Assembly: GCF_024519435.1 (NCBI RefSeq)
Contig: NZ_JALJRZ010000001.1
Location: 124,001 to 188,000, forward strand
Source: Terrabacter sp. Ter38
Lineage (GTDB): Bacteria; Actinomycetota; Actinomycetes; Actinomycetales; Dermatophilaceae
Direction: 5' to 3'
Length of the DNA stretch: 64,000 nucleotides
Part shown: piece after piece, positions 559 to 59,038 of the stretch
How the letters are laid out: each line of letters begins with the position of its first letter
Numbering within the stretch: position 1 is the stretch's first letter
Program-made: the position numbers and the translations under genes
The notes under the pieces: generated by a model
The model's input: the letters and a program-made list of their open reading frames with translations, nothing else
Told to the model about the DNA's origin: nothing
The model's database searches: none

Positions 559-621
559 ACGGCGTCCCAGCGACACACCACGACACGAGCGGGCGTATGC
601 CGTCCGCCGCCCAGGACGACA

Positions 622-654
622 GACGCCCCTCCCGGCACGGCCGGGTGGGGCGTC
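622..654. terminator. bidirectional hairpin terminator
   Basis: A 14-bp stem with one mismatch (622-635 pairing with 641-654) and a 5-base loop lies between two convergent genes. There is no clear U-tract, as is usual in GC-rich actinobacteria. It probably ends both the small gene at 373 and the phosphatase gene. Confidence 0.65.
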
Positions 655-675
655 GTCGTGCGTGCTCGCGCGCAC

Positions 676-700
676 GTGCGGTGCGGTGCGGTGCGGTGCG
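676..700. repeat. GTGCG pentanucleotide x5
   Basis: Five perfect GTGCG units end just before the stop codon of the inositol-phosphatase gene (705-707). This is a slippage-prone tract outside coding sequence. No function is implied. Confidence 0.85.
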
Positions 701-704
701 GTGA

Positions 705-1592
705 TCAGCCTGCTGCGCCCTCCGGCGCCACGAAGACGGCGCGGACCTGATCTACGAGGGCGGGCCCCGCGGCGACGGTGAGGGCGGTGCCGGGCGCAGA
801 GCCGGGGTCCTCTCCAGCGCCGACGACGACACCCCCGGCCTCCTCGACGACGAGCCAGCCGGCCGCGAGGTCCCAGGCGTTGAGCCCGGTCTCCGCGTAG
901 GCGTCCACGGACCCCTCGGCCACGCGCACGAGGTCGAGAGCGGCGCTGCCGATGCGTCGGATGTCGCGGACGAGGGGCAGGACCCGTAGGAGCACCTCGG
1001 CCTGCCGGGCGCGCACCTCGGGGGCGTAGCCGAAGCCGGTCGCGAGCAGGGTGCGGGCGAGGCGGTCCTCGCCCGAGACGGACAGACGGGCCGGCGCAAC
1101 GGACTCGGTCGGGTCCTCGGGGCTCGTCCAGGCGCCGGTGCCCCGACCCGCGTGGTGCACGAGGCGCCGGCACGAGTCGGCGACCGCACCCGCGACAGGG
1201 GTCCACCCGCCCTGGGAGTGGGCGTCGCCGACGACGACGGCCACGGACACGGCATACGCAGGGATCTCGTAGAGGTAGTTCACGGTGCCGTCGATGGGGT
1301 CGACGACCCACGTCAGGCCGGACGTCCCAGTGACGTCGACACCCTCCTCGCCGAGGATGCCGTCGTCGGGGCGGGCGGCCCGGATGAGCCGGTGCAGCAG
1401 CTCCTCGGAGCGTCGGTCCATGACGGTCACGATGTCGGTCTCGGTCGACTTCGTCGCGGCGACACCCATCCGGGGCGGCCGCTCGTCACGGATGAAGCGC
1501 GAGGCCTCGACGGCGACCTCGACGCAGAGCCGCTCGAGCTCCTCGACCGTGACGCCGTCGGGCAGCGCAGGAACGGGAGGTGTGGTGGTCAT
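705..1592 (-). CDS. inositol monophosphatase family protein
   Basis: 295-residue Mg2+-dependent phosphatase of the IMPase/FBPase/CysQ fold. Visible signatures are GEEG at residues 81-84, the metal-binding motif WVVDPIDGT at about 95-103, and the second motif LNAWDLAAG around 238-246, whose Asp is the third metal ligand. The family hydrolyses phosphate monoesters such as inositol-1-phosphate; some actinobacterial members act as histidinol-phosphatase or on NADP(H), so the substrate is open. I chose the ATG at 1592, which has a GAGGG-type site upstream. A GTG at 1610 would overlap the ferrochelatase stop. It is probably cotranscribed downstream of hemH. Confidence 0.9.
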   Translation of the reverse strand: MTTTPPVPALPDGVTVEELERLCVEVAVEASRFIRDERPPRMGVAATKSTETDIVTVMDRRSEELLHRLIRAARPDDGILGEEGVDVTGTSGLTWVVDPIDGTVNYLYEIPAYAVSVAVVVGDAHSQGGWTPVAGAVADSCRRLVHHAGRGTGAWTSPEDPTESVAPARLSVSGEDRLARTLLATGFGYAPEVRARQAEVLLRVLPLVRDIRRIGSAALDLVRVAEGSVDAYAETGLNAWDLAAGWLVVEEAGGVVVGAGEDPGSAPGTALTVAAGPALVDQVRAVFVAPEGAAG

Positions 1593-1602
1593 CGCGTCGC
1601 CC

Positions 1603-2730: not shown

Positions 2731-2788
2731 GTCTCCGCCATCGGTGGGTGAAAGGGCACGTGGGACGGTCGGCGGCGGTGCGTCGTCG

Positions 2789-3424
2789 TCAGGTCGGGTT
2801 GGAGCGCAAGGGGGTCGGGGCGTTGAGGTCGAGGCGGACGGCGAGGATCCGGAGGGCGAAGACCAGCCCCGCGGCGGTCCAGAGCACCCAGTCCTGGAGG
2901 GAGCCGAGCTGGGCGGCGACGACGACGAGGATCGACCCGAGCATGGCCGGGACGGCATACAGCTCGCGGCGCAGCACCTCGGGGACCTGGCCCGCGAGCA
3001 GGTCGCGCACGACCCCGCCCCCGACCGCCGTGATGACGCCGACGAGGACGGCCGCGATCGGCGAGACCCCGACGGTCGTCACGGCCTTGAGGCTGCCCGC
3101 GACCGCGAAGGCCGCGAGGCCGGCGGCGTCGAGGACCCGGACGAACCCGGTGATGCGTTCGACGCCAGGGTGGAAGAGGAACGTGACGAGACCGCCGAGC
3201 GCCGCAGCGGTCAGCAGCCGCCAGTCGCTGATGCCGACGGGCGGGATGTCGCCGATGAGCAGGTCGCGCACGATGCCGCCGCCGAGGGCCGCGGCACAGG
3301 CCAGCACGAGCACCCCGAAGAGGTCGAAGCGCTTCTTGACGGCCACGAGGCCGCCGGACAGCGCGAAGACGAACACGCCGACGAGGTCGAGGGCGAGCTG
3401 CGCGGACGCGAAAGAGGTAGGCAT
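2789..3424 (-). CDS. TRIC family (UPF0126) membrane channel protein
   Basis: 211-residue protein with about six to seven hydrophobic segments and two copies of the family motif: GGGIVRD (first half) and GGGVVRD (second half). This internal duplication is typical of bacterial trimeric intracellular cation channel homologues, which conduct K+ and other monovalent cations across the plasma membrane. A probable -10 element TACCGT (3435-3440 on the minus strand) lies only ten bases upstream of the ATG, implying a very short leader. It is divergent from sepH. Confidence 0.88.
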   Translation of the reverse strand: MPTSFASAQLALDLVGVFVFALSGGLVAVKKRFDLFGVLVLACAAALGGGIVRDLLIGDIPPVGISDWRLLTAAALGGLVTFLFHPGVERITGFVRVLDAAGLAAFAVAGSLKAVTTVGVSPIAAVLVGVITAVGGGVVRDLLAGQVPEVLRRELYAVPAMLGSILVVVAAQLGSLQDWVLWTAAGLVFALRILAVRLDLNAPTPLRSNPT

Positions 3425-5068: not shown

Positions 5069-5189
5069 CGGCGCCCCACCTCGCGCGCCCGGCTGCGTCC
5101 ACCAGTTCAGGGGCCGCAGCGCCCGGGTGAGCGCTCGTCGGAAGCCCGCTGGACGGCATACGCCATCGGTCGGCGTCGGCAGGTTCCGC

Positions 5190-5882: not shown

Positions 5883-5893
5883 GAGGCACCACC

Positions 5894-7054
5894 CTAGGCG
5901 CCGCGGCGGGGTGGCACCACGACCACCGGCACCGCGAGTTCCGCGTCGCTCGTTGAGCCGTGCAGCCCGAGCAGCGCGACCACCTCGCGGCGCATGAGCC
6001 CCGAGTGCACGACCGCGAAAGACCCCTCCGTCACGACGAGCAGGTCGCCGATGCGGCCCTCGACCCCCGCTCGGACCGGGCCGAACCACCCCTCGTCGAC
6101 AGCGCGCTCACGGGTGAGGATCCGGGCGCGGCCAGCGAGACGCGCCGCCCACGCCTGCTCGACATCCGCGGCGGCGCCCGGCTCGGCATACAGCTGGAGG
6201 TTGCGCGGCTCACCGCCGAGGTGGCGCACGCCCGCCATCAGACCGGGCTCGTGCACGAGGTCGATGCGGTCGTGGAAGGGCACGTCGACCATGCCGTGGT
6301 CCGCCGTGACGACGATCGAGGTGTCGTCCGGCACGCGCGCGGCGAGCTGTCGCAGGGCGGCGTCGACCGACTCGACCTCGTCACCCCACTGCCACGACTG
6401 GCAGCCGTGGACGTGGCCGATCTTGTCGACGTCGCCCCAGTAGAGGTAGACGAGGGCTCGTGGGGTGGCCCGCACCGCTGACGCAGCAGCGGACACGCGG
6501 TCGTCGAGCGTGCGTCCGGCGCGGAAGCGCCCGCCGCGCAGCGCCGCGATGGTCAGCCCCGACCCGTCGAAGTAGTGCGGACCCACCATCGTCACAGCGA
6601 CGCCGGCGTTCTCGGCGGCCTCGAAGACGGTCTCGTTCGGCTGCCAGGCCCGCGGGTCGGGACCGTCCTCCCAGGACAGCTCGTTGAGCAGCCGGTCGGT
6701 GGCCGGATCGAGCACCTGCATGCCGACGAGCCCGTGCGAACCGGGAGGCAGACCGGTGCCGAAGGTCCCCATCGAGGTCGCGGTCGTCGTCGGGAAGCCG
6801 CACGGCACGCGGTGAGCGGTGCCGAGGTGGCTGCGCAGGAAGGGTGCGTGTCCGCTGCGCTGGCGCAGCAGGTCGTGACCGAGCCCGTCGACGAGCACGA
6901 CGACGGTGCGCGGGACGGTGGGGAGGTCGAAGACGTCGCGGCCGGCATACGCGGGCACCCCGAGTCGGTCGGCGACCGACGGGAGCACGGAGGCGAGGGT
7001 GCCAGACGACCAGTCGGTCGGCGTCGGCGCGTGGGCGGTCACGTCGTCGGCCAC
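5894..7054 (-). CDS. alkaline phosphatase superfamily / nucleotide pyrophosphatase-phosphodiesterase family protein
   Basis: 386-residue metalloenzyme of the alkaline phosphatase superfamily. The metal-binding start VVVLVDGLG, the threonine nucleophile region GFPTTTATSMGTFGTG and the late motif VVTADHGMVD are all present. There is no signal peptide or membrane segment, so it is probably cytoplasmic. The substrate cannot be read from sequence; type I phosphodiesterases are the closest guess. The GTG start has only a weak ribosome binding site. It lies in a run with DUF5998 (10-bp gap) and tdk (11-bp gap). Confidence 0.88.
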   Translation of the reverse strand: MADDVTAHAPTPTDWSSGTLASVLPSVADRLGVPAYAGRDVFDLPTVPRTVVVLVDGLGHDLLRQRSGHAPFLRSHLGTAHRVPCGFPTTTATSMGTFGTGLPPGSHGLVGMQVLDPATDRLLNELSWEDGPDPRAWQPNETVFEAAENAGVAVTMVGPHYFDGSGLTIAALRGGRFRAGRTLDDRVSAAASAVRATPRALVYLYWGDVDKIGHVHGCQSWQWGDEVESVDAALRQLAARVPDDTSIVVTADHGMVDVPFHDRIDLVHEPGLMAGVRHLGGEPRNLQLYAEPGAAADVEQAWAARLAGRARILTRERAVDEGWFGPVRAGVEGRIGDLLVVTEGSFAVVHSGLMRREVVALLGLHGSTSDAELAVPVVVVPPRRGA

Positions 7055-7723: not shown

Positions 7724-10423
7724 TCAGGTCATCCGGCGACGGCCCGGGTCCTTGCGCACGAGGGCCGGTCGCACGACGACCTCGGCGCCGAGCACGTCGA
7801 CCCCGCCGGTCCAGGCATTGACCGGGTTGAGCTCGACCGAGGACAGCTCCGGGTGGTCGTCGGCGAGGACCGAGAGCCGGGCGATGAGGTCGGCGAGCGC
7901 CGCCCGGTGCACCGGAGCCGCGCCGCGGTGGCCGCTGAGGAGCGGCGCCGCCTTGACGCTGTCGATGAGGTCGGTGACGTCGACGTCGGTGAGCGGGGGG
8001 ATCCGGTGCGCGACGTCACCGAGCAGCTCTGTGGGCGGCCCGGCGACGGAGAAGCTGACCACCGGACCGAAGAGCGGGTCCTCGCTGGCGCGGATGACGC
8101 AGGACACGCCGGGCACGGCCATCCGCTGCACGACGAACCGGTCGGCCCCGAGCGGCCCCAGACGCTGGGTCAGCGACGTGTGCGCGTCGCGGACGGCCTC
8201 GGCGTCGACGAGGTCGCCACGCACCCCGACGAGGCCGGGCTGGTGGCGCACGACGGGCGAGGTCGACTTGAGGATGACGGGGTAGGTCAGCTCGTCTGCG
8301 GCGGCGACCGCCGCATCGACGCCCGCGACCTCCACGGCGGGCCAGACGCGTATGCCGTAGGCGCCCAGCAGGTCTCGCGCCTCCTCCCGCGTCAGCGCGC
8401 GTCCGTCGGGGCTGTCCGCCAGGTAGCCGTCGAGCAGCGACTCCGCACGGAGCCGGTCGATGCCCACCGGGGCGACCTGGGTGCCGCGGTCGCGTTGGCG
8501 CCAGAGGGCGTAGCGCGTGACCGCGTTGAGCGCCCGGATGCCGTCCTCAGGCATCGAGTACGCCGGCACCGACCTCCGGATGCCGTTCTGCTCGTAGGCG
8601 AGTCCGTCACCGACGCCGCGCATGCCGAGGAACGTCGCGACACAAGGCTTCTCGTGGTCGGCGACGATGGTGCGGACGGCCATGTGCACCTCTTCGTCCT
8701 GCGTCACGAGCGGCGGGATGAAGGCGGCGACGACGCTGTCGACCTCGGGGTCGGCGAAGGCCGCGTCGAGCGCGGCGGCGAACTCCTCGGCCGAGGCCTG
8801 CGGCGGCAGCGAGACGGGGCCGTGCGTCACGCGCAGCCCCCAGCTGACGCACGCGCTCGCACTCAGCGCCCCCAGGGCGTCGGAGTTGCCGACGATCGCG
8901 ACACGGTCGCCCTTCGGGAGCGGCTGGTGGAGCGTCAGCTGGGCGACGTCGAAGAGCTGGTGGACGTTCTCGACCCGGATGACGCCGGCCTGTCGCAGCA
9001 ACGCGTCGAACGCCTGCGGGGGCACGTTGGTGACACGGGTGCGGTGTCCGGGTGGGGCGGCGAAGCTCGACACCCCCGAGCTCACGACGACGACGGGCTT
9101 GACCGCCGCGAGCGCGCGGGCGATGCGCGAGAACTTGCGCGGGTTGCCCATCGACTCGAGGTAGAGGCCGACGGTGTCGGTCTCCTGGTCGTCGATCCAG
9201 TACTGCATGAGGTCGTTGCCCGAGACGTCGACGCGGTTGCCGGCCGACGCGAACACCGAGATGCCGAGGCCGCGGCGGGCCGCCGAGGCGAGCACCGCGA
9301 CGCCGAGCGCACCGCTCTGGGCGAAGAGGCCGAGGCGACCCGACTCGGGGATGACCGAGGCGAGCGTCGCGTTGAGGCGCACCGACGGGTCGTTGTTGAC
9401 GATCCCGAAGCTGTTGGGGCCCACGATGCGCATGCCGGCGCGGCGCACTCGACGACGGAGCTTCTCCTGCAGGCGGACTCCCTCATCGCCCGCCTCGGCG
9501 AAGCCCGCCGACATGACGAGGAGCGCCTTGACCCCCGCCTTGCCGCAGTCCTTGACGACCTCGATGGCCTGCGCCGCCGGGACGACGACGATGGCGAGGT
9601 CGACGGGCTCGGGCACGTCGTGGATGCTCGGGTAGGCCCTGAGGCCCTGGATCCGGTCGGCCACCCGGTGGATCGGGTAGAGCTGCCCCCGGTAGCCGGC
9701 GGCGAGGATGTTGCGCATGACGAGCGCGCCGATCGACTCCTCGCGCCGGCTCGCGCCGATGATCGCGACCCGCTCCGGGAAGAGGATGGTGTGCATGCTG
9801 CGGGACTCGGCGCGGTGCTCGCGCGAGAGCTGGACGGCCTTGCTCTGCTCGGTCGGCGAGATGTCGAAGGAGACCTCGACGACGCCGTCCTCGATGTGGT
9901 GGGTGACCTCGTAGCCCGCCTCCTTGAAGACGGTGAGCATCTTGCGGTTCTGCGGCAGCACCTCGGCGACGAACCGGTTGATGCCCATCTCCTGCGCGAT
10001 GGCGGCGAGGTGCTCGAGCATGACCGAGCCGATGCCCTTGCCCTGGTAGTGGTCCGAGATGTTGAAGGCGACCTCGGCAGACGTCTGGTCGATGCGGTCG
10101 TAGCGGCCGATGCCGATGATCTCGCCGTCGAGCGTCGCGACGAGGGCGACCCGGTCGTGGTGGTCGACGTGCGTGAAGCGGTGAAGGTCACGGGCGCTCA
10201 GCTCGCGCAGGGGCGCGAAGAAGCGCAGGTAGATCGACTCCTCCGACTGGAGGCTGTGGAAGTGGCGGATGCCGTCGGCGTCGTCGGGTGCGATCGGCCG
10301 GACGTGCGCCACGGTGCCGTCCCGGAGCACGACGTCCGCCTCCCACTCGACGGGGGCACCCGTGGCCTGCGCCGAGACCCGCTCGATCGCGCCGGTGTCG
10401 TCGCTGAGCTCGCCACCCTCCAT
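7724..10423 (-). CDS. GNAT acetyltransferase / NDP-forming acyl-CoA ligase fusion (protein-lysine acetyltransferase-like)
   Basis: 899-residue fusion. Residues about 30-190 form a GNAT domain with the acetyl-CoA-binding motif YQGKGIGS at 126-133. From about residue 215 there follow a CoA-binding Rossmann domain (VAIIGAS), the two succinyl-CoA-ligase-type domains and a C-terminal ATP-grasp domain. Enterobacterial PatZ has these parts in the opposite order; actinobacterial homologues carry GNAT first. The likely role is acetylation of lysines in acyl-CoA synthetases and other enzymes, or a true acyl-CoA synthetase activity. The start ATG at 10423 faces the nitroreductase gene across a 55-bp divergent promoter region. 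Confidence 0.9.
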   Translation of the reverse strand: MEGGELSDDTGAIERVSAQATGAPVEWEADVVLRDGTVAHVRPIAPDDADGIRHFHSLQSEESIYLRFFAPLRELSARDLHRFTHVDHHDRVALVATLDGEIIGIGRYDRIDQTSAEVAFNISDHYQGKGIGSVMLEHLAAIAQEMGINRFVAEVLPQNRKMLTVFKEAGYEVTHHIEDGVVEVSFDISPTEQSKAVQLSREHRAESRSMHTILFPERVAIIGASRREESIGALVMRNILAAGYRGQLYPIHRVADRIQGLRAYPSIHDVPEPVDLAIVVVPAAQAIEVVKDCGKAGVKALLVMSAGFAEAGDEGVRLQEKLRRRVRRAGMRIVGPNSFGIVNNDPSVRLNATLASVIPESGRLGLFAQSGALGVAVLASAARRGLGISVFASAGNRVDVSGNDLMQYWIDDQETDTVGLYLESMGNPRKFSRIARALAAVKPVVVVSSGVSSFAAPPGHRTRVTNVPPQAFDALLRQAGVIRVENVHQLFDVAQLTLHQPLPKGDRVAIVGNSDALGALSASACVSWGLRVTHGPVSLPPQASAEEFAAALDAAFADPEVDSVVAAFIPPLVTQDEEVHMAVRTIVADHEKPCVATFLGMRGVGDGLAYEQNGIRRSVPAYSMPEDGIRALNAVTRYALWRQRDRGTQVAPVGIDRLRAESLLDGYLADSPDGRALTREEARDLLGAYGIRVWPAVEVAGVDAAVAAADELTYPVILKSTSPVVRHQPGLVGVRGDLVDAEAVRDAHTSLTQRLGPLGADRFVVQRMAVPGVSCVIRASEDPLFGPVVSFSVAGPPTELLGDVAHRIPPLTDVDVTDLIDSVKAAPLLSGHRGAAPVHRAALADLIARLSVLADDHPELSSVELNPVNAWTGGVDVLGAEVVVRPALVRKDPGRRRMT

Positions 10424-10478: not shown

Positions 10479-11099
10479 ATGGAGTTCACCGACGTCGTCC
10501 GCTCCCGACGCATGGTCCGCCGCTACGACCCCGACCGGGACGTCCCGCGCGAGGTCGTGGAGCGCTGCCTGGCCAACGCGGTGCGCTCCCCGAGCGCCGG
10601 GTTCAGCCAGGGCTGGGACTTCGTCGTGCTCACCACGCGGCCCGAGCGGGACGCCTTCTGGGCCGCCACGACGGAGCCCGGCGCCGCGAGCGACCCCTGG
10701 CTCGACGGCATACGCGCCGCTCCGGTGCTCGTGCTGTGTCTCTCGCACAAGGACGCCTACCTCGACCGCTACGCGGCGCCCGACAAGGGGTGGACCGACC
10801 GGGACGAGGCGCGTTGGCCCGTGCCCTACTGGGACGTCGACACCGGCATGGCTTCGCTCCTCATCCTGCTCACCGCCACCGACGAGGGTCTCGGCAGCCT
10901 CTTCTTCGGGGTGCCGCCGGAACGCCACGGCGCCGTCCACGAGGCGTTCGACATCCCCTCGACGCGCAGCATCGTGGGCGTCGTGTCGATCGGGTATGCC
11001 GTCCCGGGACCTCGGAGCCCGAGCCTCCGACGCCATCGGCGCACGGGTCCCGACGTGGCCCACTGGGGCCGTTTCGGCGTGGCAGGTGAGAAGCCGTGA
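10479..11099 (+). CDS. nitroreductase family protein
   Basis: 206-residue FMN-dependent oxidoreductase of the nitroreductase fold. The N-terminal SRRMVRRYDPD and the SPSAGFSQGWDF segment are the usual FMN-phosphate binding elements, and GLGSLFFGV lies in the later conserved helix. Substrate unknown; relatives reduce nitro compounds, quinones or enamides. GGGAGGG precedes the ATG by about seven bases. It is divergent from the GNAT/ligase gene and followed by parC. Confidence 0.88.
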   Translation: MEFTDVVRSRRMVRRYDPDRDVPREVVERCLANAVRSPSAGFSQGWDFVVLTTRPERDAFWAATTEPGAASDPWLDGIRAAPVLVLCLSHKDAYLDRYAAPDKGWTDRDEARWPVPYWDVDTGMASLLILLTATDEGLGSLFFGVPPERHGAVHEAFDIPSTRSIVGVVSIGYAVPGPRSPSLRRHRRTGPDVAHWGRFGVAGEKP

Positions 11100-11155: not shown

Positions 11156-13696
11156 ATGGCCCGTGGAAAGACCCCCCCGCCTCCCCCGGAGGACTTCGAG
11201 GAGAAGATCGTCGGCATCGACGTCGAGGAGGAGATGCAGAACGCCTTCCTCGAGTACTCCTACAGCGTCATCTACAGTCGGGCCCTGCCCGACGCCCGGG
11301 ACGGGCTCAAGCCCGTCCAGCGACGCATCCTCTACGGGGCCAACGAGCTCGGGCTGCGTCCCGACCGGGGCCACGTCAAGAGCCAGCGCGTCGTCGGCGA
11401 GGTGATGGGCAAGTACCACCCGCACGGCGACCAGGCGATCTACGACGCGCTCGTGCGCATGGCGCAGCCGTTCACCCTGCGCCTGCCCCTGATCGACGGT
11501 CACGGCAACTTCGGCTCGCTCGACGACGGACCGGCCGCGGCCCGCTACACCGAGGCGCGCATGGCCAACGCCGCGCTGCTCATGGTCGCGGGCCTCGACG
11601 AGGACACCGTCGACTTCGTCCCGAACTACGACGACACCCAGCTCCAGCCCGGGGTCATGCCCGCGGCGTACCCCAACCTCCTCGTCAACGGCGCCGCCGG
11701 CATCGCGGTCGGCATGGCCACGAACATGCCCCCGCACAACCTCGTCGAGGTCATCGGCGCCGCGCGGCACCTCATCGCCAACCCGACCTGCTCGCTCGAG
11801 GACCTCATGAAGTTCGTCCCGGGGCCCGACCTGCCCTGTGGCGGCAAGATCGTCGGCCTCGAGGGCATCCGCGACGCCTACCTCACCGGGCGTGGCAGCT
11901 TCCGCACCCGCGCGACGGCACGCATCGAGTCGATCACGCCACGGCGCAAGGGTATCGTCGTCACCGAGCTGCCCTACCTCGTCGGACCCGAGAAGGTCAT
12001 CGACAAGGTCAAGGACCTCGTCCAGGGCAAGAAGCTGCAGGGCATCGCCGACCTCAAGGACCTCTCCGACCGCCAGCACGGCCTGCGGCTCGTCATCGAG
12101 ATCAAGAACGGCTTCAACCCCGACGCCGTCCTCGAGCAACTCTACAAGCTGACGCCGATGGAGGAGAACTTCGGCATCAACAACGTGGCGCTCGTCGAGG
12201 GCCAGCCGCGCACCATGGGCCTCAAGGACCTTCTCAAGGTCTACGTCGAGTTCCGCACCGACGTGGTACGCCGGCGCACCGCCCACCGCCTGGCCAAGCG
12301 GGAGGAGAGACTGCACCTCGTCGAGGGCCTGCTCATCGCCATCGTCGACATCGACGAGGTCATCCAGGTCATCCGCAGCTCCGACGACGCCGCCACGGCC
12401 CGGGCCCGCCTGATGGACGTCTTCGACCTGTCCGAGGCCCAGGCGACGTACATCCTCGACCTGCAGCTGCGCCGGCTCACGAAGTTCTCGCGCCTCGAGC
12501 TCGAGAACGAGAAGACCGAGCTCGAGCGAGCCATCGAGGAGCTGCGCGCCCTGCTCGACAACGAGAAGCTGCTGCTCAAGCTCGTGTCGACCGAGCTCGC
12601 CGACGTCGCCAAGGCGCACGGCACCCCGCGTCGCACGGTGCTCCTCGAGAGCTCGGGTGCCAGCGCGACCGCGACCGCGGCGTCGCCGCTCGAGATCGCC
12701 GACGACCCGTGCTGGGTCCTCCTGAGCTCGACCGGCCTGCTGGCCCGCACCGGCACGGCCGAGCCGGTCAGCGCCGAGGGCTCACGCTCGAAGCACGACG
12801 TCGTCATCGGTGCCGTCCGCACGACCGCACGCGGCGAGTTCGGGCTCGTGACGAGCGCCGGCCGGATGGTGCGCCTCTCGGCGCTCGACCTGCCGACGCT
12901 GCCGCCGACGAACGGCTCCCCCACCCTGTCGGGCGGTGCGCCGCTCGCGGCCTACGTCGACCTCGGCAAGGGCGAGGAGCCGGTGACGATCGTGCCGATC
13001 GGTGCCGACGCTCCGGTCTTCGCCGTGGGCACTGCGGCCGGTGTCGTCAAGCGGGTCACGTCCGAGGCGCCCAAGAGCAACGACTGGGACGTCATCAGCC
13101 TCAAGGACGGCGACCGCGTCGTCGGTGCCGGGGTTGCCGACCGTGAGGACCTCGACCTCGTCTTCGTCACGACCGACGCCCAGCTGCTGCGCTTTGCGGC
13201 GAAGTCCGTTCGCCCGCAGGGCCGCTCGGCTGGTGGCATGGCGGGCATCAAGCTCGCCGCCGGCGCCGGAGTCGCCTTCTTCGGCGTCACCGACCCCGCC
13301 CGCGAGGGTGTCGTCGTCACGTCGTCCGGCTCGTCGGGGGCGCTGCCCGGCACCGAGGGCGGGTCGCTCAAGGTGACGCCGTATGCCGAGTACCCCCCGA
13401 AGGGACGCGCGACCGGCGGCGTCCGCTGCCACCGTTTCCTCAAGGGCGAGGACACGCTCGTGCTCGCCTTCGCCGGCAACACCCCGGCCCGTGCCGCTGC
13501 TGCCAACGGTGTCGCCGTCGAGCTGCCGCCCGCCGACGGTCGCCGCGACGGCTCGGGCGTCCCGACGACCGCGGTCATCGCGCACGTCGCGGCTCCACCC
13601 GCCACGTCCCAGTCCACCGACGGGGAGTCGGAGGTCGCGGTAGCGACAGATGCCGTCGCCGATGACGACGCGCCGTCCGACGGCGGTGACGCGTGA
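11156..13696 (+). CDS. parC: DNA topoisomerase IV subunit A (GyrA/ParC-like)
   Basis: 846-residue type IIA topoisomerase breakage-rejoining subunit. The quinolone-pocket motif [10 protein letters not shown] lies near residue 88, and the catalytic tyrosine is Tyr131 in ARYTEARM. The C-terminal part is a degenerate beta-pinwheel with only a weak GyrA-box resemblance ([11 protein letters not shown]), which favours topoisomerase IV (decatenation) over gyrase. AAGGAG lies upstream of the ATG. Its partner ParE is encoded on the opposite strand at 20446-22578. The stop codon overlaps the next start by four bases. Confidence 0.92.
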
Positions 13697-17690: not shown

Positions 17691-18163
17691 CGCGCCACCA
17701 CCTGCTTGGCGACGGTTCCCGCCCCCACGAGGGTTGCAGTCTCCCGGGGGCCGAACTCGCCGGGATAGAGCGATCCGACGACCTCCGAGACCGGGGTCAG
17801 CCGAGACCCCGTCGCGTTGAGCTCGGTGAGCGTCATCGTCGGGGCGTGGATGCCGGACACCTCCTGGACGAAGTGGCGCACGAGGACGCTGAGCTGCTGG
17901 TGTGCTTGGCGCTGGCTGATCTCGCCCGCCGCGGCCCGGTCGAGCACGAGGTCGATCTGCCGGGTGTAGTCGGCGCGCAGCCGCGAGAGCCGGTCCGAGG
18001 TGATGCGTGGCGGGACGACGACCTTCTTCTCGCGCGTCGACCACCACACCCAGAGGTACCAGGCGGCGACGAGGACGAGCGCGCCGATGCCGATCCAGAG
18101 CCACTTCGCGGCATACGGGTCGGGGGCGTAGAAGCCCGGTGGCGGGGCGTCAGCGGCGCGCAC
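17681..18163 (-). CDS. small membrane protein of the MoxR/vWA operon
   Basis: 160-residue protein with one membrane helix near the N-terminus (WLWIGIGALVLVAAWYLWVWW), followed by a cytoplasmic helical domain. It resembles in position and layout the DUF4381-type proteins of MoxR operons, but I cannot assign the family firmly. The GTG at 18163 overlaps the end of the DUF58 gene by 14 bp; other starts slightly upstream are possible. Confidence 0.75.
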   Translation of the reverse strand: MRAADAPPPGFYAPDPYAAKWLWIGIGALVLVAAWYLWVWWSTREKKVVVPPRITSDRLSRLRADYTRQIDLVLDRAAAGEISQRQAHQQLSVLVRHFVQEVSGIHAPTMTLTELNATGSRLTPVSEVVGSLYPGEFGPRETATLVGAGTVAKQVVARWS

Positions 18164-35141: not shown

Positions 35142-35170
35142 GGACGGCATACGCCCTCGGCCGTCAGGCC
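35138..35170. terminator. bidirectional hairpin with CGGCATAC in its loop
   Basis: A 10-bp stem with one mismatch (35138-35147 with 35161-35170) lies between the convergent polyprenyl synthase and Rv2175c-like genes. The dispersed word CGGCATAC begins at the stem-loop junction. Confidence 0.55.
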
Positions 35171-46806: not shown

Positions 46807-47535
46807 TCAGTCGGACCCGAGGTCCAGGTCGACCCAGACCGGTCGGTGGTCCGACCCCACTTCGAGGTCAGCCTCGTCCACGACGGTCTCGGCCGATTCG
46901 ACGACCCGGAGTCCCGGCCCGGCGAAGACGACGTCGAGGGAGGTCGTCGGGCCGAGCGCGGGAAACGTCGGCACGGCGCCGGACACCGGTGGGTGGTGCT
47001 CGGCGAACATCGCGTATGCCGTCCCGCCGGGTCCCTCGTTGAGGTCCCCTGCGATGACGGCCCGGTCGTCGAGCCCACCGAGTCGGGTGAGACCGGCGAG
47101 CACGGCGGCCGCATGCCGCTCCCGCTCGGAGGCGCGCAGCCCGAGGTGCACGCTGACGACGGTGACGGCACGACGCGACGGACCGCCTGCCGGGATCGAG
47201 ACGGTCGCGGCGGCATACCCTCGCGTGCGGTCGGGGAACCGGACCGACAGACGGCCACGCGCCGTGCCGTGGACGACCACCCGTTCGGCCGTCAGGACCG
47301 CGGTCCCACCCGTGCCGAGGCGCCCCCGGTGCCAGTGCAGCCGGCAGTCACGCGCGAACGGCGGGAGGCGGAGCTCCGTCGTGAGCCGGCGCGGGACCTC
47401 CTGGAGGCACAGCACGTCAGGGGCGACCGCACGCACCACCCGTGCCGCGGCTGCCCGGTCGTCGAGCAGGTCGTGGACGTTGTAGCTCATGACCCGCAGC
47501 ACGTGCTCCGGTCGGCCCCCGGGCCGCGCGGCCAT
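46807..47535 (-). CDS. endonuclease/exonuclease/phosphatase family protein
   Basis: 242-residue EEP-fold protein. Visible metal and catalytic signatures are VMSYNVHDLLDD, CLQEVP, VIAGDLNEGP and the C-terminal GSDHRPVWV. Substrate unknown: DNA repair nuclease, phosphodiesterase or sphingomyelinase-like activities all use this fold. The start ATG lies three bases after the glucokinase stop, so it ends the SRPBCC/hypothetical/glucokinase run. Confidence 0.87.
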   Translation of the reverse strand: MAARPGGRPEHVLRVMSYNVHDLLDDRAAAARVVRAVAPDVLCLQEVPRRLTTELRLPPFARDCRLHWHRGRLGTGGTAVLTAERVVVHGTARGRLSVRFPDRTRGYAAATVSIPAGGPSRRAVTVVSVHLGLRASERERHAAAVLAGLTRLGGLDDRAVIAGDLNEGPGGTAYAMFAEHHPPVSGAVPTFPALGPTTSLDVVFAGPGLRVVESAETVVDEADLEVGSDHRPVWVDLDLGSD

Positions 47536-48507: not shown

Positions 48508-49112
48508 GCGCTGCCTCCGGGGCCGTTGTCGTCGGCGCCGTTGTCGTCGGCGTCGATGTCGTCGGCGTCGATGTCGGTGTCGGTGCTCGGGCGTGCGTCG
48601 TCGCTGTCGCTGTCACCCTCGGGCGCAGGCTCGGCGTGCCGCTCCCGCTGCGCCGTCGCGAGGTCGCGCAGGGCCGTGGCCGCGAAGCCGACGAAGTCGG
48701 CGACCTTCTCGATGGTGTCGGGATTGACCTGTTGGACGAAGGCGATGAGCTGGCAGACGGGGCACGCGCGGCACGCGGCGGGCGTCGTGCCCCCGCACGT
48801 GCACTCCCCCACCGGCCCGTCGGCTCGACGCGCTGCCTCCGGGCCCGTCTGGTCACGCGTCGCCGACGCCGGGCCTGGGGCGTGCCCGTGGCCGTGCGCT
48901 GCACCGCCCGCACGCTCAGCGCGGGAGTCACCGGACGGCATACGCGAGCCTCCCGACCAGGTGCGGCGGGAGAGCAGGTCGACGAGCAGCGCAGCCTCTG
49001 CCGCGACGCTGCCGGGAGGCGCGTCGGCAGGGCGCGACGTCCCGTCGGCGTCGGGCCGGTGGGGCTGGTCGGGGGCGGCAGGGGCCGCGTCGGGACCGTC
49101 GTTCGGGGTCAC
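48504..49112 (-). CDS. Cys-rich conserved hypothetical protein
   Basis: 202-residue protein with disordered ends and a central conserved-looking segment: CTCGG, then CRACPVCQLIAFVQQVNPDTIEKVADF. The cysteines could bind zinc. The C-terminal tail has 15-bp repeats encoding D-x-D-A-D. It lies between glucokinase (4-bp overlap) and the SRPBCC gene (6-bp gap). I recognise it only as an actinobacterial neighbour of glucokinase. Function unknown. Confidence 0.75.
   Translation of the reverse strand: MTPNDGPDAAPAAPDQPHRPDADGTSRPADAPPGSVAAEAALLVDLLSRRTWSGGSRMPSGDSRAERAGGAAHGHGHAPGPASATRDQTGPEAARRADGPVGECTCGGTTPAACRACPVCQLIAFVQQVNPDTIEKVADFVGFAATALRDLATAQRERHAEPAPEGDSDSDDARPSTDTDIDADDIDADDNGADDNGPGGSA
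48523..48567. repeat. 15-bp tandem repeat x3 in the Cys-rich protein tail
   Basis: Three in-frame 15-bp units (first two identical) encode an Asp/Ala-rich acidic tail; a fourth, decayed unit follows. Confidence 0.85.
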
Positions 49113-51575: not shown

Positions 51576-52934
51576 TCAGCGGAGCAGGTCGCGGATGCGC
51601 GCCTGCCAGTCCTCCACGAGGGCTGCTCGGGTCGTCCCGGTCATGCTGTGCAGGGCGGCGTCGACGGCTGCCTCCCGGTCCTCGAGCCGGGAGGTCGGGA
51701 CGTCGAGCCCGCCGGCCGCGGCCCGGTAGAGACGGACGACGGCCTGGGTGCCGTGCGCGTCCGCGAGGGTGCGCAGGGCCAGCAGCGAGAGGCCGTATGC
51801 CGCCGCGAGCGCGTGGGTGCCCGGGTCGAAGTCCGCGTCTGCCGGCAGTGCCTGAGGCAGGCCGGATGCTCGCACACGATCGAGCGCGGGAGCGACGATG
51901 GTCGCCTCCGGCAGGTCGACGGGCTCGTACGCGACGAGCTCGGCGAACCCCTCGGACAGCCAGAGGGGTACGGCCCGTGTCGTGGAGGCCCGCACGGCGA
52001 CATGGGTCAGCTCGTGCGTCATGACGACGTCGCGGCCTTCCGGACGAAGGGAGGCCCACGCTCCCGGGACGAGGACGATGCGGTCTGCGCCGGCTCTCTC
52101 CCCCGGCGTCAGCGGACCGTCCGTGGCGGCGGCGACGCCGTCGAGGTCGCCGGCCGTGCGTCCGAGCAACCGGGCGGCGTCGGCATCGGTGGCCGGGGCG
52201 ATCCAGACCGCCGGCCGCACCTCTCCCCACACGCTCGCGACCCGCGAGGCCGCCGTGCGCGCCCGACGGACGACCTCCTGCACCCGGTCGGCGTCGCCGA
52301 CGGCCAGCACCAGCGCGGTGTCCGACCTCCGGACGACGAGGCCCGCGAGATCCCAGGGCTGCGGGCGCCCGGAGGGGCTTGACGCCGTGATGGCCAGACC
52401 TCCGGGGCGGCCGGGGTCAGCCTTGAAGGTGAGGTCGAGGTCGAAGGACCGCGGACGCGCGTCGAAGCCGCGAAGCCGGTAGGTGAGGCTCGCCCTGACG
52501 TCCCACTCGACCGTGGTCCCCCGCGATGCCGGAACCGGCGCAGTGGTCTCGCGGACGCCGACGAGCCGGATGCTCTCCACCGCCATGCGCGTCATGCGGT
52601 CGAGAACGGCGGCCTGTGTCAGGCGCAACGCCCCGGACGACGCCTCCTGCAGGGGTGCCAGCCAGCCGCTCTCGTCGGACCGCGCCGCCGCGGCGAAGCG
52701 GGCGCGCAGCAGCTGCGTCACCGCCCGCTGACGGGTGGCCGCCCACGCCTCCGGACTGACCTCGGTGTCGGCACCGACGTCGCCGCTCGGGGACGTCGCG
52801 CCCGGTGCTGCGGTGGGTGGGTGTCCCGAGTCCGGAGCGGCCGTCGTGCACGCCGTGAGGGTCAGGGCCAGCAGCGCGGCCAACGCCGCCGAGGCGGCCT
52901 CCTGCGCAGGTCCACGACGACGGGTGCTCGACAC
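51576..52934 (-). CDS. lipoprotein with gluzincin-like metallopeptidase domain
   Basis: 452-residue predicted lipoprotein: an N-terminal hydrophobic segment ends in the lipobox LTAC. The C-terminal half holds HELTH (zinc-binding HExxH) followed by WLSEGFAELVAY with the third ligand Glu, as in gluzincins and peptidase MA family enzymes. The middle part has no recognised domain. It is probably membrane-anchored outside the cell. Substrate unknown. The GTG start has no clear ribosome binding site. It is convergent with fadD, with only four bases between stops. Confidence 0.8.
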   Translation of the reverse strand: MSSTRRRGPAQEAASAALAALLALTLTACTTAAPDSGHPPTAAPGATSPSGDVGADTEVSPEAWAATRQRAVTQLLRARFAAAARSDESGWLAPLQEASSGALRLTQAAVLDRMTRMAVESIRLVGVRETTAPVPASRGTTVEWDVRASLTYRLRGFDARPRSFDLDLTFKADPGRPGGLAITASSPSGRPQPWDLAGLVVRRSDTALVLAVGDADRVQEVVRRARTAASRVASVWGEVRPAVWIAPATDADAARLLGRTAGDLDGVAAATDGPLTPGERAGADRIVLVPGAWASLRPEGRDVVMTHELTHVAVRASTTRAVPLWLSEGFAELVAYEPVDLPEATIVAPALDRVRASGLPQALPADADFDPGTHALAAAYGLSLLALRTLADAHGTQAVVRLYRAAAGGLDVPTSRLEDREAAVDAALHSMTGTTRAALVEDWQARIRDLLR

Positions 52935-53311: not shown

Positions 53312-53573
53312 CGTGGTCCAACCCCTTCATCTCTCGTTGCGATCTGTCGTGAAAGACGCTAGGTGGCCCCACTGACACTGCCCCGGGACGCTCGGTCGTC
53401 GACTCGCCTCCGGGCGTCCTCCGGATGATCGCGGGACCGCGTCGAGCCCTGCCGGACGAGAACGCAGCGGGGCACCGCGATGCGCGGATGCCGTCCGACC
53501 CCCTTGTCCCAGAAGGGCTTGCGGCCGACGCGCCTCCGAGGCATTGTCGGCGCCCCGGCATACGGTCGGGGTC

Positions 53574-55373: not shown

Positions 55374-55392
55374 GCCCGGCTAGGGTGGTCCC

Positions 55393-55766: not shown

Positions 55767-56816
55767 TCAGCGTCGGGTGGCCGCCACCCAGCGTTCGACG
55801 AGGCCGGTCGCGGCACCGCTGTCGATGGCCTCGGCCGCACGGTCCATCCCGGCATGCACGTCGCCGTCGAAGTCAGCCTCCGACGCTCCCGAGTCCGGGC
55901 GCGTCAGCGCGAGGGCGATCCCGGCGTTGAGGAGTACGGCGTCCCGGACGGCTCCCGTCGCGCCGGCGAAGACGTCACGGACCACAGCGGCGTTGTGCGC
56001 CGCATCGCCGCCCCGCAGCTCCTCGATCGGGTGCAGCTCGAGGCCGAGGCGCGTGGGATCGAGGGAGTGTTCGGTGACCGAGCCTCCGCGGACCCACCAG
56101 ACGTGCGTCGTCGTCGAGACGGTGACCTCGTCGAGACCGTCGTCGCCGCGGAACACCGCAGCGTCCTTGCCGCGGTGCGCGAAGACGCCGGCCAGCAACG
56201 GGGCCATGCGGGCGTCCGCGCAGCCCACGGCGGCATACGTCGGCTGGGCCGGGTTGGTCAGCGGACCGAGGAAGTTGAACGCCGTCCCGATGCCGAGGTC
56301 CCGGCGCGGCACCGCCGTGTGACGGAACGAGGGGTGGAAGGTCTGGGCGAAGCAGAAGGTGATGCCGGCCTCGGACGCCACCTCCACCACACGCTCAGGA
56401 GGCAGGGACAGGTCCACACCGAGGGCCTCGAGCACGTCCGCCGAGCCGGACGACGACGACGCGGCCCGGTTGCCGTGCTTGACGAGACGCACGCCGGCAG
56501 CCGCCGCCACCATCGCGGACATCGTCGAGATGTTGACCGTGTGGGCCCGGTCGCCGCCGGTGCCGACGATGTCGAGGCTCGGCCCCGGCACCTCGATCCG
56601 CCGCGCATGAGCCAGCATCTGCTCGGACAGGCCCCGCATCTCCTCGATGCTCTCGCCCTTGGCCCGCAGGCCGATGAGGAAGCCCGCGACCTGAGAGGGC
56701 GTGGCCTCCCCGCTCATGATCTGGCCCATGGCCCACTCGGCCGTCGGCCGGTCGAGGTCACGACCGGCGATGAGGTCGGTCAGCAGGGCAGGCCAGGTCG
56801 TCGCGTCGGACGCCAT
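55767..56816 (-). CDS. trpD: anthranilate phosphoribosyltransferase
   Basis: 349-residue enzyme transferring phosphoribosyl from PRPP to anthranilate in tryptophan synthesis. Motifs: [18 protein letters not shown] and [22 protein letters not shown], and [12 protein letters not shown]. It is isolated from other trp genes, as is Rv2192c. It follows the receiver-like gene with a three-base gap and is probably cotranscribed with it. Confidence 0.94.
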
Positions 56817-56819
56817 GCG

Positions 56820-57290
56820 TCAGGCCGTGGGCACGCCCGAACGCGCGAGCGTGGCGATGGCCGACGTCAGCGCGATCGGGTCGAGCGGGTGCGGGACGGC
56901 CAGGTCGGCCTGGGACCAGGCGGCGAGCCAGCTGTCCTGCGGGCGGCCCGTGAGCACGACGATCGGGGGGCAGTCGAAGATCTCGTTCTTGAGCTGCTTG
57001 GCCAGTCCGAGGCCGCCGACCTTGGCGGCCTCGCCGTCCAGGACCAGGATGTCGAAGTGCTCGGACTCGACCGAGCTGATGACGGCGTCGGCCGTCGCGC
57101 ACTCGTGCCAGCGGACGACCTCGACGTCCCTGGCGGGGCGACGGCCGACCGCCGCGCGCACCGCGTCACGGGTCGTGATGTCGTCGCTGTAGAGCAGCAC
57201 GCTGACCCGCGCCACCGGCCGCTGCGCACCGGTCGTCGTCGCGATGTCGGTGGACGTGGCCTGCGCTGCGCTGTCGTTCGAGGCGGTCAT
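56820..57290 (-). CDS. receiver-like (response-regulator fold) protein without output domain
   Basis: 156-residue protein with a CheY-like fold. VSVLLYSDD supplies acidic residues, [15 protein letters not shown] has an Asp at the phosphorylation position, and [11 protein letters not shown] takes the place of the usual Thr region; the conserved Lys is not evident. A 30-residue flexible N-terminus precedes it. TAGCAT (minus strand, 57298-57303) seven bases before the ATG suggests a leaderless mRNA. It is joined to trpD. Regulatory role unknown. Confidence 0.8.
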
Positions 57291-57455
57291 GCGACCGATG
57301 CTACCGGGCGGGTCGCGACCGACCGCACGGACCTCCCCACCCGCGAGACGACGCGTCAGACGGACGTGGGAGGGTGGTCCCGGACGGCCCCCGACACGGC
57401 TGTTCAGGGTTCATGTCGGAATGGTCACGAATCCTCTACACCCGCGCGAGAAAAG

Positions 57456-57470
57456 CCCCCGAAGCGGGGG
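57456..57470. terminator. short GC hairpin in the leader of the oxidase/bc1 operon
   Basis: CCCCCG-AAG-CGGGGG forms a 6-bp stem with a three-base loop, 35 bp upstream of ctaE. It might be an attenuator-like or mRNA-stabilising element rather than a true terminator. Confidence 0.4.
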
Positions 57471-57504
57471 GTCCCTCGCACAGCCGGACAGGAATGTGGG
57501 AATA

Positions 57505-58167
57505 ATGTCCAACGTGGCGACAGCATCGGCAGTTCCTCCAAGCGCAGTAGCGAATCCGGCCCACCACGGGCCGGCGACCCGCCCCAACATGGTTGCCGTC
57601 GGCACCATCGTGTGGCTCTCCAGCGAGCTCATGTTCTTCGCGGGTCTCTTCGCGGTCTACTTCCAGCTCAGGTCGGTCCGCGGCGACCTCTGGGCCGTGC
57701 AGACCGAGAAGCTCAACCTGCCCTTCGCGAGCGTCAACTGCCTCGTGCTCGTCATCTCCTCCGTGTGGTGCCAGCTCGGCGTCTGGAAGGCCGAGCGCGG
57801 CCAGAAGGCCCGCACCGGCAAGCTGCTCGACATCAAGGGCTGGGGCATGCGCGAGTGGTACGTCCTGACGTACCTCTTCGGCGCCTTCTTCATCGCCGGC
57901 CAGGTCATGGAGTACTCCGAGCTCGTCCACGAGAACGTCACGCTGAGCTCTGACGCCTACGGCTCGGTCTTCTACATGGCGACCGGCTTCCACGGCCTGC
58001 ACGTGACCGGCGGTCTGATCGCCTTCCTGCTCATCATCGCCCGCACCTTCACGACGCGGCGCTACACGCACGCCAACGCCACGGGCGCCGTCGTGACGTC
58101 GTACTACTGGCACTTCGTCGACGTCGTGTGGATCGCGCTCTTCGCGACCATCTACATCCTGCGCTGA
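57505..58167 (+). CDS. ctaE: cytochrome c oxidase subunit III
   Basis: 220-residue membrane protein with about five helices, shorter than mitochondrial subunit III as usual in actinobacteria. Typical segments are [48 protein letters not shown] and the end [21 protein letters not shown]. It belongs to the aa3 oxidase that forms a supercomplex with the bc1 complex encoded next. GGGAATA precedes the ATG. Confidence 0.95.
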
Positions 58168-58228
58168 ACCCCGGCATGAGCGCGCAGCTGCACCCGACCC
58201 CCACCTCCATGGACGACAGGAACCCACA

Positions 58229-59038
58229 GTGAACGCCTTGGCCGCCCGACGCCGACACCCCGCCGCGATCGCGGTGCTGCTGCTGCTCGGCCTCCTCGTG
58301 ACCGGTGGCGCCTACTCCTTCCTCGCCCCCAAGGACGCCAACGCGTCGGCGCCCACGGCGGCCGCCGACGACGTCGCCCACGGCAAGGACCTCTTCATCG
58401 CCAACTGCGCCACCTGCCACGGCGTCGGCGCCCAGGGCACGAAGTCCGGCCCGTCGCTCGTCGGCGTGGGGGCCGCGTCGGTCGACTTCCAGGTCGGCAC
58501 CGGACGTATGCCGCTCGCCGGCCCGAACGTCCAGGCGCCCCAGAACAAGGTGAAGTTCGACGACGCCCAGATCTCCGCCCTCGCGGCCTACGTCGCCTCG
58601 CTCGCCCCCGGCCCGGCGATCCCGGAGGAGAAGTACACGACGGTCATCGAGCCGGGCACGCCGGAGAACAACAAGGCCATCGCCGAGGGTGGCCAGATCT
58701 TCCGCGTCAACTGCGCGATGTGCCACAACTTCGCCGGCGCGGGCGGCGCCCTGACCCGGGGCAAGTACGCTCCGGCGCTCGATGGCACCACACCGAAGCA
58801 CATCTACGAGGCCATGGTGACCGGGCCGCAGTCGATGCCGGTCTTCAACGACATGAACCTGACGCCCGAGGCGAAGCAGAAGGTCATCTCCTACCTCAAG
58901 GCGCAGGAGAACGAGACGAACGTCGGCGGCCTCACGCTGGGCAACCTCGGCCCGGTGTCCGAGGGGCTCTTCGCGTGGGTGTTCGCGCTCGGCATCCTCA
59001 TCGGCTGCGCCGTCTGGCTCGGCAAGAAGGCAGCATGA
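58229..59038 (+). CDS. qcrC: bc1 complex dihaem cytochrome c subunit
   Basis: 269-residue actinobacterial cytochrome cc. An N-terminal membrane segment is followed by two haem c sites, CATCH at 60-64 and CAMCH at 162-166, and a C-terminal membrane anchor (WVFALGILIGCAVWLG). It replaces a soluble cytochrome c by passing electrons directly to the aa3 oxidase. GTG start with AGGA upstream. Second gene of ctaE-qcrCAB. Confidence 0.95.
   Translation: MNALAARRRHPAAIAVLLLLGLLVTGGAYSFLAPKDANASAPTAAADDVAHGKDLFIANCATCHGVGAQGTKSGPSLVGVGAASVDFQVGTGRMPLAGPNVQAPQNKVKFDDAQISALAAYVASLAPGPAIPEEKYTTVIEPGTPENNKAIAEGGQIFRVNCAMCHNFAGAGGALTRGKYAPALDGTTPKHIYEAMVTGPQSMPVFNDMNLTPEAKQKVISYLKAQENETNVGGLTLGNLGPVSEGLFAWVFALGILIGCAVWLGKKAA

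Follow-up and report, generated by a model that had tools for sequence, protein, structure and literature searches.

The 64-kb window analyzed here, that is, the whole stretch of Terrabacter sp. Ter38 DNA under study (C11:124001-188000 in our contig numbering; draft genome of 4.83 Mb in 54 contigs), contains genes for topoisomerase subunits, a DNA polymerase III alpha type protein and a PASTA-domain protein kinase. Throughout these and other genes, and in the spaces between genes, an eight-nucleotide word, CGGCATAC, is repeated. An exact search recovered 30 copies from position 595 to 58513, 18 on the plus strand and 12 on the minus strand, in agreement with what the initial annotation had counted by hand for the 7-mer GGCATAC. 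The window counts of GCATAC, GGCATAC and CGGCATAC are all 30, so each GCATAC there extends to CGGCATAC, as the annotation had also observed, and the next base is a G in 22 of the 30 copies. Across 100 dinucleotide shuffles of the window, the word occurred 0.76 times on average and never more than 4 times. Such shuffles give 1.58 copies of GGCATAC, so the earlier chance estimate of about six was generous to chance. Scans of the window with Rfam and for tRNAs gave no matches.

The excess is genome-wide, with 2,069 copies of CGGCATAC (1,033 and 1,036 by strand) compared with 210 of the reversed word. In 448 kb of the genome, CGGCATAC was the top-scoring over-represented 8-mer under a third-order Markov model (193 observed vs. 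9.0 expected). GGCATAC was extended to CGGCATAC in 193 of 203 cases in this sample, and A or G was preferred before the word and G after it. None of the single-base variants was raised to a similar degree; the most frequent of them, CGGCATCC, had 85 copies vs. 48. The genome-wide count, which the initial annotation had proposed as a check, thus bears out its observation, which was correct and understated.

Most window copies lie within genes, as called by our own crude gene caller. On the gene strand, 17 of the 30 are read as G-TAT-GCC-G (Tyr-Ala) and 8 are in other frames, much as the annotation had described. The remaining 5 are intergenic rather than the four it had listed, and the three that it had placed between convergent genes are indeed there. 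Codon shuffling, in which synonymous codons are exchanged across genes while proteins and codon usage are preserved, reduced the 143 genic copies in the 448 kb to 7.9. The Tyr-Ala frame holds 96 of the 143 (vs. 3.5 after shuffling) and three other frames are also in excess (27 vs. 2.4, 9 vs. 1.6 and 8 vs. 0.2), and the remaining two frames have 2 and 1 copies. Intergenic DNA, as delimited by the same crude caller, makes up 17% of the sequence and carries 50 copies (26%). Codon usage does not explain the abundance of the word, and the earlier statement that it is not a codon effect alone holds.

Comparison with relatives revealed that the word is conserved beyond the protein that it encodes. 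In six congeners, 114 of 154 aligned copies were intact, compared with 78.8 expected from the average 8-mer. When Intrasporangium calvum was included as a seventh relative, TAT codons within words remained TAT in 74 of 95 comparisons and those elsewhere in 16 of 39, in line with the synonymous-site check suggested in the initial annotation, and GCA was retained in 14 of 19 inside and 184 of 716 outside (Fisher tests, 8e-5 and 2e-5, respectively, with no correction for common descent). Of the 13 Terrabacter words that could be aligned in I. calvum itself, only 1 was intact. Genome-wide it has a weaker excess (1,142 vs. 453 for the reversed word). A first 40-kb sample of that genome gave no excess over codon shuffling (7 vs. 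6.6), the majority of copies being outside called genes, and 180 kb gave 18 genic copies vs. about 2.

The word has no chromosomal polarity. Measured on the sequence itself rather than on hit listings, 105 copies were on the plus strand and 101 on the minus strand in a second family genome, G011, sampled in 20 stretches spanning 2.3 Mb of a 2.47-Mb contig whose GC skew changes sign; the start of contig C1 of the Terrabacter genome (200 kb) had 60 plus and 49 minus. The suggestion in the initial annotation of a chromosome-orienting site is contradicted by these data. Spacing on C1 was near random, with a coefficient of variation of 0.93. Neighboring copies within 100 bp of each other were found ten times in 505 kb of the Terrabacter genome, and eight of the ten pairs were minus-then-plus, vs. 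about 2.1 expected per orientation. All eight fold as hairpins with both words in the stem (-31.6 to -53.5 kcal/mol); three are between convergent genes, three between tandem genes, one between divergent genes and one was called genic.

The word is also scarce in the low-GC blocks and mobile elements that were sampled. Blocks of 10 kb in the Terrabacter genome with a GC content below 0.69 had 0.67 copies each (6 blocks), compared with 4.8 in the other 43. Mobile elements lying in the tad locus (see below) of five word-rich genomes together had 3 copies in 43.7 kb vs. 18.8 expected from own-genome word density, with element borders set by eye; a sixth element (G040, 1 word in 10.9 kb) was excluded because that genome has few words. 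Separately, the first 60 kb of the contig that carries the window (G000:C11:1-60000, L011-L013) has a GC content of 0.667-0.68 and 5 words, and is presumably a genomic island.

A survey of 186 genomes of the family Intrasporangiaceae/Dermatophilaceae in 53 genera, Ter38 included, sorted them, by a cut that we set, into 109 word-rich genomes (at least 340 copies and at least 2.4-fold the control), 66 poor ones and 11 in between. Beyond the family, an order sample of 396 genomes included 362 from 19 other families, none with more than 180 copies. The word was also counted at 80 named loci for the DNA import protein ComEC, the closest named relative of the Ter38 ComEC being that of Terrabacter sp. 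Root85 (88%). Between 6 and 22 copies in 14-22 kb were present at loci from Terrabacter, Humibacillus, Knoellia remsis, Arsenicicoccus bolidensis, Tetrasphaera, I. oryzae, three Ornithinimicrobium and two Phycicoccus records. A fourth Ornithinimicrobium locus had 3 copies in 13 kb, and none were found at those of I. flavum, Janibacter indicus (12 kb only), one Phycicoccus record and Dermacoccus abyssi. Loci of organisms that we take, from their names, to belong to other families had 0 to 3. Among the families sampled in the order, CGGCATAC is confined to one, and in some relatives within it the word is replaced by dialects.

In 400 kb of G011, the dialect is CGNCATAC, with N being G in 206 copies, T in 145, C in 136 and A in 113, and 484 genic copies vs. 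about 50 after codon shuffling. G046 also uses CGNCATAC, leaning to G. G045, which is of the same genus as G046, has only 37 copies of CGGCATAC and 1,924 of GSTCTACG (448 for the reversed pattern), a number that does not exceed 833 in the other 185 genomes. In 140 kb of G045, GSTCTAC exceeded codon shuffling in five frames (23 vs. 2.9, 4 vs. 0.8, 3 vs. 0.03, 3 vs. 0.1 and 91 vs. 28), and 21 further copies lay in 16 kb of intergenic DNA. The same motif is much nearer to codon use in G046 (33 vs. 18 and 2 vs. 1.2, with zero in the other frames). G194 has 40 copies of CGGCATAC and its dialect is CGGCATCC, with 82 copies in 93 kb, 51 of them genic (about 8.5 after shuffling) and 31 in 13.6 kb of intergenic DNA. 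This pattern was not matched in eleven other samples, and a milder excess of CGGCATCC was seen in two frames of G011 (34 vs. 13 and 10 vs. 2.7). Composition can hardly explain that individual species exchange one word for another, whereas a changed recognition specificity would leave such a pattern. G011 (L077-L096) also has, beside CGNCATAC, a second repeated word, ACGGCATTGT / GACAATGCCG, with 21-26 copies in the 400 kb.

Word-poor genomes were searched for dialects with a six-frame codon-shuffle score, which gave clear dialects in G045 and G194. No convincing dialect was found in G140 (91 kb), G114 (73 kb), G009/G186/G189 (88 kb), G010, G016 and G018 (53 kb each, G018 being also pooled with part of G199 for 70 kb), G017 (62 kb with L138), G022 (40 kb), G084 (33 kb) or G072 (20 kb), nor at the named loci L118 and L129 (22 kb each). 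Four codon-shuffled nulls scored no more than 9, and a true 50-kb Terrabacter sample scored 15-18. Weak dialects in word-poor genomes are possible, because the search lists failed to rank CGGCATAC in a 40-kb piece of the window and poor samples reached 12-32 on codon-like words or on words also raised in word-rich genomes, such as CGGTGA (G140), GCAGCA (g11), GCATCC (g2), CGAGCA (G114) and CGACGC (L118). At L118, from I. flavum, ACGCGTC within the palindrome GACGCGTC is raised in several frames and there is no CGGCATAC in the 22 kb; this is possibly a different motif.

Genes that would be required for DNA uptake are widespread. ComEC is present in 37 of 38 genomes, including that of Ter38, where comEC has an adjacent comEA-type gene; this pair is common to most family loci, and the SLBB and HhH domains were confirmed on the comEA copy of Terrabacter sp. 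Root85. A type IVa pilus was rejected as the uptake machine, with PilM in none of 24 family genomes and N-methyl pilins in one (G013). TadE was found in 181 of 186 genomes and a flp-like gene in 166 of 186, and a conserved locus in the order tadA-tadB-tadC-flp-tadE-tadF-tadG adjoins a gene that we took for prfB. Pfam recognizes TadA, TadC, TadE and TadG of this locus; the flp-like and tadF-like genes had no Pfam match and are named from their place and likeness. The TadF-like pilin has two invariant cysteines (19 sequences) and the lowest identity in the locus in 9 of 10 comparable genome pairs. Its model (mean predicted local distance difference test score of 89) comprises three strands and a long helix close to the N-terminus. 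A Foldseek search of the PDB gave no match to it at an E-value of 0.001 or better, and the model is therefore neutral on a DNA-binding role. By analogy, the TadF-like pilin would be a candidate reader of the word. A second Tad/Flp cluster, distinct from the conserved locus, lies in a word-poor, lower-GC stretch of contig C1 and has two classical Flp pilins, one of which was tested and identified as Flp_Fap.

The conserved tad locus has been interrupted in several genera. We picked nine genomes in which tadA and flp were distant or the tadA match was cut, and in eight of them tadA (G001, G007, G006, G189) or tadC (G008, G176, G199, G114) was split or cut by an insert; the split tadC of G008 is that of Terrabacter sp. 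Root85. A recombinase gene was present in the insert of seven of the eight, and the four tested were serine recombinases with Resolvase/Recombinase domains. The inserts were about 5 to 37 kb long, and the codon of tadA or tadC at which they lay varied between genera. G040 had a gap after tadC with no recognized recombinase. As the genomes were chosen for being split, these figures give no rate. In G194 (L233:1-13215), the end of tadC, flp, tadE, tadF and most of tadG have been replaced by unrelated DNA; a stretch resembling the C-terminal 43 residues of TadG is still present, as is the dialect of this genome. Because the same genes were hit at different codons, the locus seems worth disabling, and it is likely a hot spot of conflict over DNA uptake. 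Mobile elements have been reported in competence genes, among them comYC, comFA, comK and comM (PMC4774983).

Table 1. Copies of CGGCATAC in the window and coordinates of associated genes and loci.
Feature	Position	Strand	Context
CGGCATAC	595..602	-	intergenic, convergent genes
CGGCATAC	1250..1257	+	genic, Tyr-Ala
CGGCATAC	2953..2960	+	genic, Tyr-Ala
CGGCATAC	5154..5161	+	intergenic, convergent genes
CGGCATAC	6184..6191	+	genic, Tyr-Ala
CGGCATAC	6943..6950	+	genic, Tyr-Ala
CGGCATAC	8350..8357	-	genic, sense frame 2
CGGCATAC	10706..10713	+	genic, sense frame 2
CGGCATAC	10994..11001	-	genic, Tyr-Ala
CGGCATAC	13381..13388	-	DNA gyrase/topoisomerase IV subunit A gene, Tyr-Ala
CGGCATAC	17609..17616	+	genic, Tyr-Ala
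CGGCATAC	18109..18116	+	genic, Tyr-Ala
CGGCATAC	18360..18367	-	genic, sense frame 1
CGGCATAC	22221..22228	+	gyrase subunit B type gene, Tyr-Ala
CGGCATAC	26906..26913	+	DNA polymerase III alpha type gene, Tyr-Ala
CGGCATAC	29920..29927	-	DNA polymerase III alpha type gene (same as 26906 copy), sense frame 0
CGGCATAC	33560..33567	+	genic, Tyr-Ala
CGGCATAC	34307..34314	-	genic, antisense frame 1
CGGCATAC	35145..35152	+	intergenic, convergent genes
CGGCATAC	37826..37833	-	PASTA-domain protein kinase gene, Tyr-Ala
CGGCATAC	38624..38631	-	PASTA-domain protein kinase gene (same as 37826 copy), Tyr-Ala
CGGCATAC	40364..40371	+	genic, Tyr-Ala
CGGCATAC	44689..44696	+	genic, Tyr-Ala
CGGCATAC	47014..47021	-	genic, sense frame 1
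CGGCATAC	47211..47218	+	genic, Tyr-Ala
CGGCATAC	48936..48943	+	intergenic, tandem genes
CGGCATAC	51795..51802	-	genic, sense frame 1
CGGCATAC	53556..53563	+	intergenic, divergent genes
CGGCATAC	56231..56238	+	genic, Tyr-Ala
CGGCATAC	58506..58513	-	genic, antisense frame 1
Topoisomerase A subunit gene	11156-13696
Topoisomerase B subunit gene	20446-22578
DNA polymerase III alpha type gene	26487-30533
Conserved tad locus	G000:C3:108888 onwards (to 113700)		tadA-tadB-tadC-flp-tadE-tadF-tadG
Interrupted tad loci	L235, L236, L237, L238, L240, L241, L244, L242-L243		orthologues of G000:C3:108888-113700
Second Tad/Flp cluster	L005:10365-18877 (G000:C1:90365-98877)		two Flp pilins

The topoisomerase A and B subunit genes of the window are ~7 kb apart, with the polymerase III alpha type gene nearby, and all three bear at least one copy of the word.

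Overall, CGGCATAC is a genome-wide, non-palindromic, unpolarised signal at the DNA level, conserved at synonymous sites. We hypothesize, with a probability of roughly 70%, that it is a self-recognition word, or DNA uptake sequence (DUS), for natural transformation in the Intrasporangiaceae/Dermatophilaceae. This is close to the initial annotation's idea of a DNA-level word in the style of uptake sequences, which outlived both the genome-wide and codon-shuffle counts and the conservation tests, the uptake role itself being our proposal. A DNA-binding part of the uptake machine would prefer fragments bearing the word, ComEA and ComEC would import the DNA, and recombination would then spread and maintain words in the core genome; a change of dialect would reflect a change in the receptor's taste. 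The pilus would most likely be of the Tad/Flp type, which we favor because PilM was found in none of 24 family genomes and N-methyl pilins in only one, and because transformation of Micrococcus luteus depends on tad genes. Our best inference is that Tad-dependent uptake is the stage at which the word would be read.

Several observations weigh against this proposal. The arrangement known from Neisseria, a type IVa pilus with a ComP minor pilin, was not found. The presence of ComEC, comEA, TadE or TadA was tried as a predictor of the word and was not discriminating; the machine fails to predict the word because word-poor genomes also carry ComEC, TadE and the conserved TadA and, mostly, flp. Among genomes at least 90% complete, flp was present in 92 word-rich genomes and missing from 1, and present in 49 of 60 poor genomes (G194 counted as poor) and missing from 11, with 10 intermediate genomes (9 with flp, 1 without) excluded. 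The association (Fisher, 1.5e-4; 0.0019 at the genus level; both uncorrected for descent) lends weak support to a Tad link, weak because moving G194 out of the poor class on account of its own dialect weakens the tests to 0.0014 and 0.020, and because other poor genera may hide dialects. At all completeness levels, the word-rich genomes with no flp match were G105, which is 99% complete, and G002, G148 and G197, which are 68-75% complete. An intact-looking tad locus is present in the word-poor G009, G084, G018, G016 and G140, and G010 has all tad genes except tadG in the gene calls; none of these has a dialect that we trust. In G114, which has 19 copies of the word, the pilin genes look whole and the locus is split. 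Since word-poor genomes usually keep the machine and G105 is word-rich with no flp match, either uptake can persist after specificity has gone, or we are mistaken about Tad. The close pairs of G011 (28 plus-minus, 18 minus-plus, 20 minus-minus and 8 plus-plus) are without the hairpin bias of Terrabacter. Transformation of a word-bearing species was not reported among the literature matches listed, and no instance of it is known to us.

Other explanations were weighed against the same data. In the main alternative, the word is a DNA-modification or other DNA-binding site. It may be modified by a methyltransferase (an orphan enzyme, or one of a Type III-like or bacteriophage exclusion (BREX)-like kind) that acts on one strand of the asymmetric word, and be kept for regulation, repair or protection. 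Changed enzyme specificity could also yield dialects, and highly iterated palindrome 1 (HIP1, GCGATCGC) of cyanobacteria demonstrates that a genome-wide iterated word can accompany orphan methyltransferases (PMC4390886). We nonetheless regard a modification site as unlikely: CGGCATAC is not palindromic, Type II restriction palindromes are often avoided rather than enriched (PMC4687349), and the pairing in hairpins and the scarcity in mobile DNA, though compatible with it, are not predicted. Binding of an abundant, unpolarised nucleoid-associated, recombination or damage-response protein would suit words that are present in all stretches of normal GC content, on both strands and at near-random spacing. 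Such a protein fails to predict species-level replacement of the word or the hairpin pairs, we know of no dense, unpolarised chromosome-organizing or repair site with dialects, and this explanation seems to us somewhat less probable still.

The recombination site Chi and the FtsK-orienting polar sequences (KOPS) are also short, and a genome has from hundreds to a thousand of them; a polar site of this or another replication-oriented kind would share that short-word, high-copy nature. It would be expected to have a strong strand bias relative to replication, and the nearly even strand counts in G011 and on C1 make it very improbable; for G011 it is already contradicted. A by-product of codon, codon-pair or mutational preferences would account for two-thirds of genic copies (96 of 143) being Tyr-Ala in one frame. 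Adapter contamination has to be considered as well, and a primer containing CGGCATAC is presumably the Illumina P7 end. The word does occur in a common sequencing primer (PMC4763429), but codon shuffling leaves only 7.9 of the 143 genic copies, the flanks vary between copies and related families have background counts, so that a by-product or contaminant is already contradicted and is hardly credible.

The uptake-sequence interpretation was compared with known systems. CGGCATAC shares with the DUS and the uptake signal sequences (USS) of other bacteria iteration of a short word to a degree that composition and codon use would not give, conservation at orthologous sites that exceeds what the protein requires, lack of chromosomal polarity (in G011 and parts of the Terrabacter genome), rarity in recently acquired DNA (tad-locus elements of five genomes and the low-GC blocks) and dialects among related species. 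DUS dialects of the Neisseriaceae, eight in number and following lineages, have reported counts of 2,245 to 5,918 copies, with inverted pairs in all harboring genomes, strong conservation and absence from recently acquired genes (PMC3630211, PMC2397512). Like them, CGGCATAC is short, asymmetric and conserved, with copies on the scale of thousands and dialects; inverted pairs forming stem-loops are clear in Terrabacter, and G011 has no such bias. Unlike them, it is an unrelated word in monoderm actinobacteria, without type IVa markers except for the N-methyl pilins of G013, and with an uptake role that we propose; as those markers are missing from the other family genomes tested, a ComP-like reader of the Neisseria type is not expected. 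Pasteurellaceae USS have an orientation bias within genes (PMC2346458), and USS pairs serve as terminator stems in Haemophilus influenzae (PMC5217627). The iteration, the within-gene orientation bias and, in Terrabacter, the paired copies of CGGCATAC are similar; the word, phylum and envelope differ, and uptake here is deduced. HIP1 is a palindrome with methyltransferase sites and a very high copy number in its clade, with exceptions (PMC4390886). Within a single clade, CGGCATAC is likewise very numerous genome-wide, some members excepted, but it is asymmetric and differs from its reverse complement, and a hairpin requires two copies of it, so the likeness to HIP1 drawn in the initial annotation is the weaker one.

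A parallel in gene content is Micrococcus luteus, which is in the same NCBI order. It carries comEA/comEC as well as tad loci, lacks a type IVa pilus and requires its tad genes for transformation (PMC4322843). The family studied here are likewise actinobacteria with comEA, comEC and tad loci, as read from their genes. As for a difference, we found no report of an uptake sequence for M. luteus: the accessible portions of PMC4322843 make no mention of one, and the terms "uptake sequence" and "DUS" are absent from PMC8467076. No report of CGGCATAC or of an actinobacterial uptake sequence was present among the matches listed, which comprised titles and starts of abstracts with most subscription journals outside their scope; literature containing the letters of CGGCATAC is swamped by printed primers and barcodes and cannot settle whether the word has been described before.

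We consider it a little better than an even bet that these genomes hold a family of DNA uptake sequences that arose independently of the two others, making it the third overall and the first among monoderm actinobacteria, in which core genomes are marked with CGGCATAC or a dialect (CGNCATAC, CGGCATCC, GSTCTACG) read by a Tad/Flp competence pilus, without a ComP-bearing type IVa pilus, and in which the pilus genes are repeatedly interrupted by mobile elements. Labels of this kind are known chiefly in two families of Gram-negative bacteria. Preference for labelled DNA has been described for the Neisseriaceae and Pasteurellaceae (PMC1939737), and the reason for its evolution remains under debate. 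A separate instance from a further phylum would permit comparative tests of drive vs. selection and of repair vs. barrier, for which 186 genomes with graded copy numbers, absences and four word forms provide material. If the hypothesis is true, natural transformation is predicted in actinobacteria of soil, sludge and the sea, among them the phosphorus-removing Tetrasphaera/Phycicoccus group; for these, no report of transformation was present among the matches listed, not every genus having been searched. Transformation could then aid genetic work on laboratory strains of these bacteria, and if the word reader is a Tad pilin, it would represent a new kind of sequence-specific DNA receptor.

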